Part shown: piece by piece, positions 26 through 54,817 of the stretch
Position numbering within the stretch: position 1 is the stretch's first letter
Layout of the letters: each line of letters begins with the position of its first letter
Origin: an uncultured Bacteriovoracaceae bacterium
GTDB lineage: Bacteria; Bdellovibrionota; Bacteriovoracia; Bacteriovoracales; Bacteriovoracaceae
Assembly (NCBI GenBank): GCA_937931205.1
Contig: CALHBF010000005.1
Location: 248,001 to 312,000 of the forward strand
DNA length: 64,000 bases
Reading direction: 5' to 3'
Translations under genes and position numbers: made by a program
The notes under the pieces: generated by a model
Seen by the model: the letters and a program-made list of their open reading frames with translations, nothing else
Told to the model about the DNA's origin: nothing
The model's database searches: none

Positions 26-42
26 TGTCTAGACTTTAGACA
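26..42 (+). promoter_or_regulatory. TGTCTA-N5-TAGACA inverted repeat, copy 1
   Basis: The 17-bp site has perfect 6-bp arms around GACTT and lies 23 nt before the ATG of the first gene, an exported small protein. Three related sites occur at 48053-48069, 53019-53035 and 53743-53759, each upstream of an exported-protein gene. Read toward the downstream gene, all four begin with TGTCTA. A transcription-factor operator is the simplest inference; no cognate regulator is identified. Confidence 0.5.
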
Positions 43-65: not shown

Positions 66-422
66 ATGCAATACTTTATCCTGGGTCTAGGCCTTCTAAG
101 CTTTAATGCCCATGCCTATCTCTATACTGAACAATCGAGAACTTATCTCTCGGATGTAGAATGTCTTGAATCTCTTCCTAGTGAAATTGAATGTAAGCGT
201 GTGCGCGATGATCTGCTGTTATGCCAGTCTGAGTTTGAAGCTTTGATGAAGCATGGTGGGGTGAAGACTTTGAATATAAAGATGTATGAAGAGATTCCTG
301 TTGATAATAAACTCTTCAGGCCTTTGACGGATAAGATTAATGAATTATGGGTCGGTGTGAAGGTGAAGAGTCACGTAAAAGAGAGAGTTAAAAGAGTTGA
401 AGCCTTGAGCATGTGCCAATAA
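66..422 (+). CDS. Small exported cysteine-containing protein, unknown function
   Basis: This 118-residue protein starts with a short hydrophobic segment ending in AHA at about residue 17, which looks like a signal peptidase I site, so export to the periplasm or outside is inferred. The mature part has four cysteines (about residues 33, 43, 53 and 117), compatible with two disulfides. A strong Shine-Dalgarno (GAGGAGGG) precedes the ATG. The gene stands alone, has the TGTCTA inverted repeat 23 nt upstream and ends at a bidirectional terminator. I do not recognise the family. The ORF is well supported by start signals and terminator. Confidence 0.75.
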   Translation: MQYFILGLGLLSFNAHAYLYTEQSRTYLSDVECLESLPSEIECKRVRDDLLLCQSEFEALMKHGGVKTLNIKMYEEIPVDNKLFRPLTDKINELWVGVKVKSHVKERVKRVEALSMCQ

Positions 423-46879: not shown

Positions 46880-47911
46880 TTAGCGGTTAGCTACTGAACG
46901 CTTAGGGCGGGCAGTAATTTTTCCATCCACTTCAGCGGCTAGAGTTAATGCTCTTGCAGCGTCAAGTTTACCAGCTCCAAGGATCTTACCTTCAAAGTTA
47001 GGAACACGGCTTGATGAGCTTAGAACAATATTTTTGATCTGATCGTATTTCATGTGTGGATACTGAGATTTAATCAGAGCAGCGACACCAGAAACGAAAG
47101 CTGTTGCTTGGCTTGTTCCTGTCATATAGGCCGCGCCACTACCAGGGATGGCAGAACGGATTCTATGTCCAGGAGCTGCGATATCTACTGATTTTTTACC
47201 GAAGTTTGAGCTTGGGATGATATTGAGCATGTCATCATAAGCACCGACAGTAATGATATTTGAGAGTCCGTAAGAAGCTGGGAAGTAAGCGTTCTTCTTT
47301 TCATCAATATTTGATTTCTCATTTCCGGCAGCTGCGATTACAAGAATACCTTTTCTTTCAGCTTCTTTGAGAATTTTTAATTCTTCAGGGCTAGATTCAG
47401 GTCCACCACCAGAGTAGTTGATGATATCAACATTGTTTTCCACAGCGTAACGAAGTGCCTTAATAGTCGCCGCAAGATTGGCCTGACCACTGGCCGCAGG
47501 ATTGTAATATTTAAGAGCTAGAATTTTAACTTCAGGGAAAACTGATTTTACGATTCCGGCCACATGAGTTCCATGTCCATGCTGGTCAAAAGGAGTTTGT
47601 GTTTCTTTACCGGTAGAGTAATCAATTCCAAAATTGCTTTTACCCGCAGCACCTTTAAGAACATGGATATTGTCTTTAAGGAACGGATGATCAATTTGAA
47701 TACCAGTATCAATAACAGCAACAACGATTTCTTGATTCTTCTTAAATTTTTTCCATGTATCAGCAAGATTAATGTTCGCAGTAGTTTTCTCAGGATCAAC
47801 ACCCCAGCTGGCGAAACGAGACATCAGCATTTCTGGTGTATAGTTTTGAGCAAGCACACCTTGTGCAGCAAATGCTAAAACTAGAATAAATGAATGAATA
47901 GCCTTTCTCAT
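46880..47911 (-). CDS. Secreted subtilisin-like serine protease
   Basis: A 343-residue S8 protease with a signal peptide (MRKAIHSFILVLAFAAQGVLA). The catalytic triad is complete: Asp68 (VAVIDTGIQ), His113 (HGHGTHVAG) and Ser267 (YMTGTSQATAF), with the oxyanion Asn197 (AAAGN). Between the signal peptide and the core there are only about 40 residues, too short for a classical I9 prodomain. Two promoter-like elements are upstream: CCGATAAG at 47947-47954 and a TGTCTA inverted repeat at 48053-48069. In a predator such an enzyme could attack prey proteins (inference). Confidence 0.93.
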   Translation of the reverse strand: MRKAIHSFILVLAFAAQGVLAQNYTPEMLMSRFASWGVDPEKTTANINLADTWKKFKKNQEIVVAVIDTGIQIDHPFLKDNIHVLKGAAGKSNFGIDYSTGKETQTPFDQHGHGTHVAGIVKSVFPEVKILALKYYNPAASGQANLAATIKALRYAVENNVDIINYSGGGPESSPEELKILKEAERKGILVIAAAGNEKSNIDEKKNAYFPASYGLSNIITVGAYDDMLNIIPSSNFGKKSVDIAAPGHRIRSAIPGSGAAYMTGTSQATAFVSGVAALIKSQYPHMKYDQIKNIVLSSSSRVPNFEGKILGAGKLDAARALTLAAEVDGKITARPKRSVANR

Positions 47912-47954: not shown

Positions 47955-48052
47955 ATAATTCCTACAGAAACAAAGAGAGCAATTGTCTTGCCAAGTAAAA
48001 TAATTGAAATTCAGTAGTTTAAGAGGAGAGTAGTGTTAGCAGCAGAGGCGGG

Positions 48053-48069
48053 TGTCTAAGTTTTAGACA
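48053..48069 (-). promoter_or_regulatory. TGTCTA-N5-TAGACA inverted repeat, copy 2
   Basis: Perfect 6-bp arms. It lies directly after the dksA terminator T-run and 141 nt before the subtilase ATG. On the minus strand it reads TGTCTAAAACTTAGACA. Confidence 0.55.
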
Positions 48070-48098
48070 AAAAAAACCCCTCAGAGTCTGAGGGGTTA
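48069..48098 (-). terminator. Intrinsic terminator of dksA
   Basis: On the minus strand AACCCCTCA / TGAGGGGTT with a 5-nt loop is followed by a run of T (eight A on the plus strand). Confidence 0.92.
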
Positions 48099-51643: not shown

Positions 51644-52939
51644 TTAAATCTTGATAAGACTAAAGACTTGCTCTTCTCCATCTTCATGGAGAACGAACCT
51701 GAAATTGTCCTTAAGAATGAGCTGTCCTTCCTTGATCTGACCGACTTCTTCTCCTAGGAGAGTGATCGTTTTAGCATTTATTTCAAATTGCAGTGGAGTA
51801 CTGACCTTTTGAGTTCCTGCCTGCTCAGTTTTAATAGCATTAGCAGAAAAATGAATCTTATTATTTTTCAAAGTTAATTTGTATTTGCCTTCATTGATAT
51901 GAAGTCCCTGAACTCTGATTAGGTCCCATTTTTGAAATTCACGGTGAGCAAGATAGAGTCTCTGTTCATCATTATTTTCTTTAAGACGAAAGCTGATGAT
52001 ATTGAGTTGTTCCTCTTTTTTTAGATTTTGTTCCAGTTTATTAAAGTTTCTGAAACACTCTAGCGAGTGACAACGCTGATATTGAAGAGGAGAAAGATTC
52101 GTCACACTAAAAGCATCATCAATATCAAATTTCAATTCATTCAAATAAGAACTGATTCCTTTAATTTGATTAAAGCTCAGCTCTTCTTTATTAATATAAA
52201 TGTAGGCAAGTTCTTGAGTGCTGAACTTTTGAATCAGCTCCTCAGTTTTCATAGCAGGTAATTGAATTTCAGAAATTTTCTTCTCTAGAAGGGAAGGATT
52301 CTTCATTACTAGCTCTGGATAAATGGTAAGGTTGTTCTTTCTAAGCCAGTTATGAACTCTTGTTGGCACAATGGCCTGTTTATCATCAACAGTAAGACCA
52401 GCTTCAATGAGGAATTTTGAAATAACTCCCACGCAATTATTCTTAGTAAAAGTGTAATTCTTGAGCTTCTCAGGATTTTTCACATATTCAAAAGTAATAT
52501 CCAAGAAATGGTCTAATTGTTTCTTATCTAAGTTAAGAACATATCGACGAAGATCACGGCTTTCAACTTGAGTATATCTGCTCCAGTACTCATGAAGAGT
52601 CATGACTTCAGGTAAAATGGGATAACCGCCAAATACACCTTTAACGAGAGATAATTTTTCAGTATCAGAAAGGGCACCGAAGCTGATGACAATATCATTG
52701 GCCCATAGACCGTCTTTATCTACAAAGCGAAGCAGGGCATGACCAAAACGGCTGGCCATATTGTTGGCACGATCAGCTACGATGATCTCAAGACCCGTAA
52801 TCTCAGATCTTTGAGCAAAAAGAAATTCAGCACGAGTTTTATGAATATGAATGAACTGTTCTAGATCTTTTTTAAATTCATCTTGGTTAGCAAGTGCTGC
52901 TTGAGAAAAAAGAATTAAAAAAGAAAGAATCCATTTCAT
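51644..52939 (-). CDS. Exported DUF4105 family protein
   Basis: A 431-residue protein with a signal peptide (MKWILSFLILFSQAALA). The ATG at 52939, with GGGGTG upstream, is preferred over the GTG at 52945. The DUF4105 region (about 50-180) shows 'MASRFGHALLRFVD' and, later, 'YTFTKNNCVGV', a His and a Cys that are thought to be a papain-like/NlpC-like active-site pair in this family. The C-terminal ~150 residues are beta-rich and unassigned. Upstream is copy 3 of the TGTCTA inverted repeat. It may be envelope-acting hydrolase (inference). Confidence 0.82.
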   Translation of the reverse strand: MKWILSFLILFSQAALANQDEFKKDLEQFIHIHKTRAEFLFAQRSEITGLEIIVADRANNMASRFGHALLRFVDKDGLWANDIVISFGALSDTEKLSLVKGVFGGYPILPEVMTLHEYWSRYTQVESRDLRRYVLNLDKKQLDHFLDITFEYVKNPEKLKNYTFTKNNCVGVISKFLIEAGLTVDDKQAIVPTRVHNWLRKNNLTIYPELVMKNPSLLEKKISEIQLPAMKTEELIQKFSTQELAYIYINKEELSFNQIKGISSYLNELKFDIDDAFSVTNLSPLQYQRCHSLECFRNFNKLEQNLKKEEQLNIISFRLKENNDEQRLYLAHREFQKWDLIRVQGLHINEGKYKLTLKNNKIHFSANAIKTEQAGTQKVSTPLQFEINAKTITLLGEEVGQIKEGQLILKDNFRFVLHEDGEEQVFSLIKI

Positions 52940-53018
52940 AAACACCCCAATGATTGATGAAATGATTTTAACTGAGAATAGGGTGTGTGTAGGAAGCGAG
53001 AGTAAAAAGAACAGGGGG

Positions 53019-53035
53019 TGTTTAAATTTTAGACA
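53019..53035 (-). promoter_or_regulatory. TGTCTA-N5-TAAACA inverted repeat, copy 3
   Basis: On the minus strand TGTCTAAAATTTAAACA, one mismatch between the arms, 79 nt before the DUF4105 ATG at 52939. It touches a 13-bp perfect hairpin (53034-53076). Confidence 0.55.
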
Positions 53036-53076
53036 CCGAGCTGACTAAACTGGGGGAAGAGTGAGTCAGCTCGGTG
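53034..53076. repeat. 13-bp perfect inverted repeat
   Basis: CACCGAGCTGACT and AGTCAGCTCGGTG enclose 17 nt. It follows the stop at 53091 of the minus-strand gene. A T-run is lacking, so it is a weak terminator candidate, possibly Rho-assisted or mRNA-protecting. Confidence 0.7.
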
Positions 53077-53090
53077 AAAAACGTTATTTA

Positions 53091-53651
53091 TTAGCGTCTT
53101 AGAGCAAGTTCATCCATTGCTACTTTCAGAATCCCTTGAGCTGAAAGCATTGTCTCTTCAGACTCACAATACAACCCTTGAGCATCCTGTGACTTAATTG
53201 TTTCAGCAAGATCTCTTAAAGAAACTGATGTTGAAATTTCATTGGTTACAGCAACCATGGCCTTTTGAAGAGTTGGACCATTACCGACTTGAGCTTCTTT
53301 AAGAAGAGAAAGTCCATCTTGAATCGTTGCCTGAGTAGACAATAGCTTTTTAGTGCTATCAGAGAGTCTAAAGTCGATATAGAATTCAGAGATCTTAGCA
53401 CTTGAGTAAGATACCGCCGTCACTCCTGTTACAAGTAAGAAAGGGTTCGCCGTTACAGTTGAAACACCTGTTAATCCAATAGAAGAAGAGGCACTTGATA
53501 GAATTGCTGTTTCTTGGGCCGCACGGTTTGCATTTGTTTCTGCCACTTTCGCTTTTACTTCAGTTAATTTTTGAGAATAAGCATCATAACAGCTAGCAAA
53601 AGCTTGAGATGAAAGAAGAAGTGAAGTGGCGATAATTGTGTGTAGTTTCAT
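53091..53651 (-). CDS. Exported alanine/serine-rich helical protein, unknown
   Basis: A 186-residue protein. Start MKLHTII at ATG 53651, with GGGGAG 7 nt upstream; an in-frame TTG at 53666 is unlikely. A signal peptide ends QAFA at about residue 18. The mature part is helical, with two cysteines (ASCYDAY and LYCESEE). A hydrophobic, Ala/Ser/Val-rich middle (about 47-80) might be a membrane segment or a buried hairpin. Copy 4 of the TGTCTA repeat is 91 nt upstream. Unknown family. Confidence 0.72.
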   Translation of the reverse strand: MKLHTIIATSLLLSSQAFASCYDAYSQKLTEVKAKVAETNANRAAQETAILSSASSSIGLTGVSTVTANPFLLVTGVTAVSYSSAKISEFYIDFRLSDSTKKLLSTQATIQDGLSLLKEAQVGNGPTLQKAMVAVTNEISTSVSLRDLAETIKSQDAQGLYCESEETMLSAQGILKVAMDELALRR

Positions 53652-53742
53652 ATGCGGTCTCCCCAAAAAAGTAGTGATCGTTTTGAGTCATTATAGCGAA
53701 AAAGGGGAAGCAGAATATCTGAGTTGAAAAAAATACGATGGC

Positions 53743-53759
53743 CGTTTAAATTTTAGACA
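53743..53759 (-). promoter_or_regulatory. TGTCTA-N5-TAAACG inverted repeat, copy 4
   Basis: On the minus strand TGTCTAAAATTTAAACG; the left half matches the other copies exactly, the right half has two changes. It overlaps the last codons of dinB and lies 91 nt before the exported-protein ATG at 53651. Confidence 0.45.
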
Positions 53760-54817
53760 CATTTCAAGTTAGGGAAGGGGAAAGAGAGCTGAGCATCTTC
53801 ATGATGGGTTTCAGTCGAATAGAGTTTTACACCCACTCCTAGCAGACGAACGTCCCTAGGATCTTCTGCAAATCTTTCTTCAAAAAGATCAAAAAAGTTT
53901 TGATCTTCAACAGGAAGGTTTCTCTCAATAGTAGTTGATTTGAAGTCACTATACTTAATCTTGACGTGAATGTTTTTAATTTTTCTGTCTGTATAGCGTT
54001 TAAGGTCATCTTTAAGTTCAGTGATAAGTTTTACCATCTGGGTTTTCATCTCTAATGGAGAAGTAAGGTCGTTAAGAAACGTTCGCTCAACCCCAACTGA
54101 TTTTCGCTCATACTCAGTCTGAACTTCCCGATAATCAATGCCACGACAATAAAGATAGAGGCTATCGCCAAATTTTCCACAGATCTGATGAAGTTCGTCT
54201 AAGGATAGTCTTTGCAGATCTTCACAAGTTTTAAGGTTAAAAGAGAGGAGTCGTTCATTAAGAACTCGACCAACTCCTCCAATCCTTTTAAGTTCAATCT
54301 TCTTGATGAATTCGCTGACTTGATGAGGGGCAACTGTAAACTGGCCATTGGGCTTATTATAGTCACTGGCAATTTTGGCCAAAAGTTTATTAGGAGCGAT
54401 GCCGGCAGACGCTGTTAGTTTTGTTTTTTCAAAAATTTCATTTCTAATTTTTTGAGCGAGAAGAGTCGCCGAGTTTCCACACTCAACAGAATTGGTTACA
54501 TCTAAATAGGCTTCATCAATAGAAACCTGCTCGATAAGGTCAGCATATTTTTCAACGATAGCGAAAACTTCCTGACTGGCCTCGCGATATTTAGAGTGAT
54601 GGCCTTGAATAAACTTAATATGAGGACATAGTTTTTTGACCTGAACAGTGGACATGGCCGAGCGAACCCCAAACTCCCGGGCCTTATAGTTACAGGTAGA
54701 GATAACTCCACGCTTCCCGCCACCGATGGCAATAGGGATATTTTTAAGCTCAGGACGTTCTCTTATTTCAACAGAAGCGAAGAAAGCGTCCATATCTAGA
54801 TGAATGATTTTTCTCAC
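53753..54817 (-). CDS. dinB: DNA polymerase IV
   Basis: A 354-residue Y-family translesion polymerase. Palm motifs HLDMDAFFASVE (first Asp) and SIDEAYLDVT (Asp-Glu pair) are intact. 'IGGGKRGVISTCNYKAREFGVRSAMS' is the fingers region. A helix-hairpin-helix thumb (about 180-205, 'LKRIGGVGRVLNERLLSF') and a C-terminal little-finger domain follow. No typical beta-clamp peptide is sure; the end QLSFPF could serve. Normal length. Its promoter region faces a short ORF and rho. Confidence 0.95.
   Translation of the reverse strand: MRKIIHLDMDAFFASVEIRERPELKNIPIAIGGGKRGVISTCNYKAREFGVRSAMSTVQVKKLCPHIKFIQGHHSKYREASQEVFAIVEKYADLIEQVSIDEAYLDVTNSVECGNSATLLAQKIRNEIFEKTKLTASAGIAPNKLLAKIASDYNKPNGQFTVAPHQVSEFIKKIELKRIGGVGRVLNERLLSFNLKTCEDLQRLSLDELHQICGKFGDSLYLYCRGIDYREVQTEYERKSVGVERTFLNDLTSPLEMKTQMVKLITELKDDLKRYTDRKIKNIHVKIKYSDFKSTTIERNLPVEDQNFFDLFEERFAEDPRDVRLLGVGVKLYSTETHHEDAQLSFPFPNLKCV

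Follow-up and report, generated by a model that had tools for sequence, protein, structure and literature searches.

What is the function of a 17-bp motif that stands before four genes for exported proteins in a genome of an uncultured Bacteriovoracaceae bacterium? The motif was noticed in a stretch of 64,000 nt (the window), which comprises bases 248001-312000 of contig C5 (CALHBF010000005.1) in a draft genome of 3.08 Mb and 30 contigs. An earlier note on this DNA proposed that a transcription factor or an unusual promoter element controls secreted proteins through it. The timing of secreted-enzyme production in predators of this group is poorly known, and a regulon defined by cell location, not by pathway, can here be read from sequence with exact coordinates for mutation. 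Re-reading the window located the four sites at 26-42, 48053-48069, 53019-53035 and 53743-53759, with 12 of the 17 positions invariant, just as the note had described them. All four are double-stranded inverted repeats, TGTCTA-N5-TAGACA. This dyad nature had been missed, as had the grouped and phased distances to sigma54 and TATAAT boxes and the family-wide extent of the motif.

A family-wide dyad tied to exported-protein genes

A scan of the window with the site-derived pattern, allowing up to three mismatches, returned only these four places (8 strand matches). Shuffled windows gave a mean of 3.27 strand matches and none of 100 shuffles reached 8. Because the pattern was derived from the sites, the window scan alone is circular, and the independent test is genome-wide. 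In the whole draft genome, exact GTCTA-N(k)-TAGAC dyads with k from 0 to 20 number 33; a spacer of 5 accounts for 16 of them, and the other 20 spacers share 17. The full TGTCTA-N5-TAGACA has 15 exact copies and 19 that deviate at one position (34 sites in total). At two mismatches chance dominates, the reversed-motif control being commoner than the dyad (204 vs 107). The family survey covered 129 genomes of the order, which are displayed as a single family of 48 genera. In 114 genomes the exact site was present at least once, and the sites numbered 463 in all, compared with 28 for the reversed control, a total added up by hand. In the rest of the phylum, outside this family, the dyad is unevenly distributed. 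The four window sites thus belong to an inverted repeat that extends over the genome and the family.

Genes were called from open reading frames (ORFs), and signal peptides by two home-made rules, one crude and one strict. Since the strict rule overlooks clear cases, counts are given by the strict rule, by the crude rule and by eye, the last judgement not being blind. Of the 34 own-genome sites, 28 lie between genes and are followed by a complete gene no more than 250 nt downstream. The strict rule found a signal peptide or lipobox at 24 of these 28 testable sites, and the four that it missed (L026, L039, L045 and L050) look exported by eye, giving 28/28. Counted by gene, with both genes of a divergent site scored as targets and one of them possibly a bystander, 26 of 34 site genes were strict-positive compared with 83 of 310 others (odds ratio 8.9, p = 1.9e-8). 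Pooling the four site sets used here (own genome, relatives G104 and G004, and the exact sites of other relatives) gave 128/201 vs 195/629 (p = 2.4e-16). By site, the strict rule was positive at 28/38 in G104, 18/26 in G004 and 45/65 in the other relatives, and the crude rule found a signal peptide at 88/103 exact and 47/53 one-mismatch sites. No enrichment by the strict rule was seen among the genes of G004 one-mismatch sites (7/14, p = 0.57) or of G104 exact sites (9/21, p = 0.45); by the crude rule, 12 of the 13 exact sites in G104 precede a signal-peptide gene (p = 0.07 when counted by gene). Among the 69 exact sites of other relatives, 55 were crude-positive; the remaining 14 comprise 4 that look exported by eye (L060, L167, L174 and L206) and 10 that do not. 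Non-exported targets in two genomes are AurF-like proteins (L121 and L142).

Genes for exported proteins are common, amounting to between 27% (83/310, strict) and 39% (135/350, crude) of the other genes at own-genome loci, and an AT-rich palindrome of gene spacers might often precede them by chance. The preference for a spacer of 5 and the family count against the reversed control contradict such an origin, as does the wrong-spacer control, which did not show the link to exported genes: 9 of its 17 own-genome dyads are intragenic, and of the 6 testable ones 2 stand before a gene with a called signal peptide. We regard chance as practically negligible. One additional k=5 dyad, L038, likewise precedes a gene for an exported protein. 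Genome-wide, the sites are tied to exported genes and not randomly spread, and the motif is kept in relatives; this link and this conservation support the proposed regulatory site or promoter element for secreted proteins. One further claim of the earlier note, that the conserved TGTCTA half always lies farthest from the gene, does not hold in general. Among 40 one-mismatch sites with one clear signal-peptide gene each (own genome, G104 and G004), 17 have the mismatch in the half farther from the gene and 23 in the nearer half (p = 0.43).

A Pfam search covered 30 of the 34 target entries of the own genome (one duplicate of a window gene, one near-copy and two short entries were omitted). The peptidases among them are two subtilases, two trypsins and one M48 peptidase. 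Other targets are a YkuD L,D-transpeptidase, a PHB-depolymerase-type esterase, a PAP2 phosphatase, an APP1 phosphatase, an Lnb_N protein, a DUF2959 lipoprotein and an RCC1-repeat lipoprotein; 18 of the 30 received no family. Proteins of 243-293 aa that by eye have a common N-terminus form a repeated family (L041 and L052 in the own genome, L085 and L105 in G104). All four members have the dyad and a strong sigma54 promoter, and the member scanned has no Pfam family.

Promoter architecture downstream of the dyad

Once the sites were aligned toward their genes, -24/-12 boxes were seen downstream of many. By a score from a hand-made weight table built on the sigma54 consensus, 21 of 105 site-gene pairs reached at least 13, compared with a mean of 0.8 and a maximum of 3 in shuffles; the 105 pairs include two duplicates in kind (L039 is window site 26, and two L022 sites stand before one promoter). 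With relatives included, 219 pairs had 51 forward sigma54 matches vs 12 on the reverse strand. Between 30 and 95 nt from the site end (n = 43), the offsets fall at 38-43 (11), 49-54 (4), 57-63 (19) and 68-70 nt (4), groups that centre near 41, 50, 59 and 69, with lone offsets at 32, 74, 79, 87 and 88. Their periodicity is best near 9.5 bp and weaker at 10.5 bp, with a Rayleigh p of about 1e-6, or about 1e-4 for the 24 offsets outside the main group; periods were scanned and these p values are uncorrected. We refer to this sigma54 architecture as class B.

Class A was recognised among 120 sigma54-free pairs, 14 of which have an exact TTCAA 12-15 nt past the site (other 4-nt bins, 0-6). The element is better read as part of a second dyad, TTGAA-N5-TTCAA. 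The gap from TTCAA to a TATAAT-like box is 28 or 29 nt in 21 co-occurrences, every other gap having 0-5. In a second class A group the whole unit of TTGAA-N5-TTCAA and TATAAT lies about 11 nt farther from the site, and the distance between the centres of both dyads is about 20 or 31 bp, equal to two or three helical turns. A strong -10 box at 44-51 nt occurred in 18 of 103 cases, compared with a mean of 7.4 and a maximum of 15 in 500 shuffles. Where they are recognised, the two promoter classes stand at fixed, helically phased distances from the dyad.

The distance from site to start codon has a median of 88 nt and a 5th-95th percentile range of 58-125 in 30 exact sites that are each linked to a single signal-peptide gene (own genome, G104 and G004). 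These distances do vary, as the earlier note had observed, but the recognised promoter elements lie at narrowly grouped distances from the site. These elements also bear on whether the motif acts in RNA, as a 5' untranslated region hairpin of exported-protein mRNAs. A perfect dyad, present at two of the four window sites, could fold as a 6- or 7-bp stem. Recognised promoters, however, predict transcription starts downstream of the site; the RNA pair survives at 8 of 40 one-mismatch sites, which is about chance level (6 of 36 possible changes), and the fold energies are no better than those of shuffles at all four window sites. We judge an RNA element very improbable.

The regulator: mechanism, candidates and known systems

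We consider it fairly probable, on balance, that the dyad is the site of one dimeric enhancer-binding protein of the NtrC/FleQ kind, which would control a regulon of mostly exported proteins. From the sequence we infer that the dyad is bound, that its regulator activates and that the binder belongs to this class. A regulator dimer with a Fis-type helix-turn-helix would recognise the 17-bp dyad before genes for proteases, phosphatases, an L,D-transpeptidase, an esterase, lipoproteins and many small unknown proteins. At roughly one site in three, the dyad-bound ATPase would activate the phased sigma54 promoter. No second shared dyad was seen by eye in the sigma54 class, and because of this the dyad itself would be the natural enhancer. 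The regulator would need no sigma54 at other sites, where the dyad lies about two or three turns upstream of the second dyad and of a TATAAT box of housekeeping type; FleQ acts in this way in Pseudomonas.

Several observations weigh against this proposal. Enhancer-binding proteins normally work only with sigma54, and class A consequently calls for a second mode, like that of FleQ, or for another binder. Among 142 sites that have a signal-peptide gene, 42 show a phased sigma54 box, leaving about two thirds without, and 30 a strong -10 box at class A distances; by the rules used, about half of the 142 fit neither class. When one mismatch is allowed, TTCAA is weakly localised (30/103 at 12-17 nt vs 7-22 in other 6-nt windows).

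The dyad could instead be bound by a regulator of another kind (LysR-, CRP- or XRE-like), which would aid housekeeping promoters from about -68 and merely modulate the sigma54 promoters, whose true activator would bind elsewhere. LysR operators have a T-N11-A dyad near -65 and a second site near -42. Our dyad contains T-N11-A, and class A, with the dyad centred at about -68 and the second dyad TTGAA-N5-TTCAA at about -48, comes near the geometry of LysR recruitment and activation sites; class B does not match it. Helical phasing, moreover, is by itself no proof of an enhancer-binding protein. Yet sigma54 requires such a protein, and no other shared dyad was visible at the sigma54 promoters. 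The 6-5-6 dyad and the tandem dyads 32-33 bp apart, present in the own genome and G004, also resemble NtrC-type sites. We hold this alternative to be unlikely, but a serious competitor.

Two related regulators with near-identical dyads, one for the sigma54 and one for the TATAAT class, would account for the existence of two promoter classes, and one-mismatch sites with a TTGACA half, compared by eye, have no phased sigma54 box. Core and spacer are nevertheless identical in both classes across genomes, and exported genes follow both. We consider this explanation, which partly overlaps the others, rather improbable.

If a single enhancer-binding protein is responsible, which one could it be? The own genome encodes ten clear members of this class (NtrC-family AAA+). 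Our candidate is L150 (C5:7562-9067), which has a receiver, an AAA+ domain with GAFTGA and a Fis-type domain. Its gene is flanked by metK and an mla operon, and flagellar genes are a few kb away (metK and the flagellar genes named by eye). Against the PDB, its helix-turn-helix alone matches FleQ best (2.8e-7), ahead of a Fis-like protein (4.2e-5) and ZraR (1.9e-3); at full length FleQ (3.5e-95) is closely followed by ZraR (5.6e-94). In Pfam, its N-terminus matches Response_reg (PF00072) and not the FleQ domain (PF06490). Exact sites average 0.8 per genome in 15 genomes of genera that lack L150 and 4.0 in 109 carriers (p = 6e-6); when genomes of 90% completeness or more are taken alone, the values are 1.0 (n = 6) and 4.0 (n = 71; p = 0.005).

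The case for the regulon is strong, and that for the name of its regulator weak. That L150 binds the dyad is the weakest step of the best explanation, and we put it forward as a tentative identification, more doubtful than probable. These site averages are uncorrected for the G+C content of the genera compared, and the co-occurrence comparison covered L150 and L152 among the enhancer-binding proteins. Further evidence also speaks against L150. Its recognition helix is unchanged outside the family, in genomes with no site and in those with 3-6 sites. Within the family, L150 is present in 8 of the 15 genomes without an exact site (G030, G032, G034, G067, G076, G105, G123 and, in part, G011), and five genomes without it, each less than 90% complete, have 3-5 sites (G092, G099, G014, G117 and G111). 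No dyad within two mismatches precedes its own gene, and no NCBIfam equivalog model reaches its cut-off for this protein. The full picture, in which one FleQ-like response regulator between metK and the mla operon would be the master switch of the family's exported enzymes, using both promoter kinds and phased to each, with the regulon kept and rewired gene by gene, is possible but somewhat unlikely.

Other candidates were examined. The presence of L152 (C19:4940-6313) tracked the motif in 7 chosen genomes, but this fails over 368 genomes. L152 was rejected: no close copy exists in G007 (9 exact sites), G006 (10), G001, G054 or G077, and in two relatives the genes beside it have sigma54 boxes but no dyad. 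Beside an L152-type regulator, loci L216 (G004) and L222 (G010) contain small genes with sigma54 boxes, which we take to be CsbD-like and DUF1328-like. By eye these carry another inverted repeat, GTGTGG...CCACAC, to which that regulator may bind. L151 (C19:127761-131258), an NtrC-type response regulator, lies directly upstream of lspA- and lgt-like genes of lipoprotein maturation (by eye), a setting that makes it attractive; it seems, judging from best scores, to be present also where the motif is at background, and was set aside. For L155 and L156, the loci compared from 7 genomes contained no best-hit partner. The TIGR02147 family gave no match in the own genome, nor in the control genomes, and its absence is accordingly not demonstrated.

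Known regulatory systems offer several parallels. The NtrC upstream activating sequence of E. coli glnA is a 17-bp dyad with 6-bp arms and a 5-bp spacer before -24/-12 promoters, with tandem copies about 32 bp apart. Our dyad shares the 6-5-6 layout over 17 bp, the position upstream of sigma54 promoters and the tandem sites; it differs in sequence and in having housekeeping-type promoters within the same regulon. GlrR (QseF), which controls glmY and rpoE, has TGTC-N10-GACA sites. The outer half-sites TGTC/GACA are the same and GlrR is an enhancer-binding protein, as proposed here, but the spacer of the GlrR sites is longer by one base.

FleQ of Pseudomonas works with sigma54 at the promoters of flagellar genes and with sigma70 at those for biofilm formation, and has a 14-bp box, GTCAAT-N2-ATTGAC (PMC10723142). 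In a chromatin immunoprecipitation sequencing (ChIP-seq) study, that box could not be confirmed as a robust consensus (PMC6120874). Like FleQ as so described (PMC10723142), the dyad would serve sigma54 and housekeeping-type promoters, and is an inverted repeat with GTC/GAC outer letters that often occurs more than once per promoter. The Fis and AAA+ domains of the candidate L150 also match FleQ best among solved structures. Unlike FleQ, spacer and inner letters are those of GTCTA-N5-TAGAC, L150 has a true receiver domain and the regulon consists of exported proteins. This would likely be a second case, outside Pseudomonas, of one operator for sigma54 and housekeeping promoters. In the predator Bdellovibrio bacteriovorus, the attack-phase regulon of FliA has a sigma28 motif, TTAAG-N16-CCGATA, in 92 of 140 promoters, and for the remaining third its authors found no strong motif (PMC3627812). 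Both regulons are broad gene sets, that of FliA including proteases and surface anchors; the FliA motif, unlike the dyad, is the -35/-10 of sigma28 (PMC3627812). Literature searches for the palindrome strings TGTCTA/TAGACA and TGTCTAAA/TTTAGACA gave nothing on these bacteria among the matches listed. No such exported-protein regulon appeared among the titles and abstract starts of the matches listed, and FleQ with the full box as a single string had no match. Sigma factor use is predicted at many genes of the regulon, which would make the timing question directly testable.

The four window sites and further observations

The dyad at 48053..48069 is an exact match and belongs to class B. Its sigma54 -24/-12 promoter (TGGCAAGACAATTGCT, 47978..47993, minus strand) lies 59 nt past the dyad, at the commonest distance, and the gene for an exported subtilase (Peptidase_S8; 46880..47911, minus strand) starts 141 nt from it. 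The dyad directly follows the terminator-like hairpin of the upstream gene; this strong hairpin (CCCTCAGACTCTGAGGG, then a T-run) occupies 48070-48097 and abuts it. At some further sites, too, the dyad comes immediately after a terminator-like hairpin or a stop codon.

The dyad at 53743..53759 (TGTCTAAAATTTAAACG in gene-ward reading, two mismatches, no strand) is textbook class A. The TTCAA element, the right half of the second dyad, is at 53724..53728 (minus strand), 14 nt past the site, and the -10 box TATAAT at 53690..53695 (minus strand), 47 nt past the site and 28 nt past TTCAA. The gene for an exported 186-aa protein of unknown family (53091..53651, minus strand) starts 91 nt from the dyad, which overlaps the stop codon of ORF 53753-54817. 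The dyad at 53019..53035 (TGTCTAAAATTTAAACA in gene-ward reading, one mismatch, no strand) is probably class A. A probable -10 box, TAAAAT, read directly at 52965..52970 (minus strand), is at the class A position, 48 nt past the dyad; no TTCAA element was found downstream of the site. Its gene (51644..52939, minus strand; start 79 nt from the dyad) encodes an exported Lnb_N protein (Pfam PF13387), previously called a DUF4105 protein.

The dyad at 26..42 (TGTCTAGACTTTAGACA) is exact; like that at 48053, it is perfect at all 12 dyad positions, hence symmetric and without orientation or strand. Standing 23 nt before the ATG at 66, it is an outlier in ATG distance and fits neither promoter class downstream. 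The gene (66..422, plus strand) encodes a 118-aa exported protein with 4 Cys, beginning MQYFILGLGLLSFNAHAY, to which Pfam assigns no family. In this protein the signal peptide is called by eye; both script rules were negative, there being no positive residue.

In G004 (L137) and G010 (L194) the dyad lies in frame within the N-terminus of a homologous exported-looking ORF, where it encodes CLKFRQ or CLTFRQ; the true start is perhaps downstream. In G007, three transposon copies (L182, L184 and L185; site at 1401) begin 35, 35 and 36 nt from three different dyads. The transposase has a Tnp_DNA_bind domain, tested on the L184 copy. The sequences between dyad and transposon are unrelated, and in two cases the transposon is on the side away from the exported gene. 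Among the dyad-bearing loci, to which the examination was confined, this looks like insertion targeted beside the dyad.
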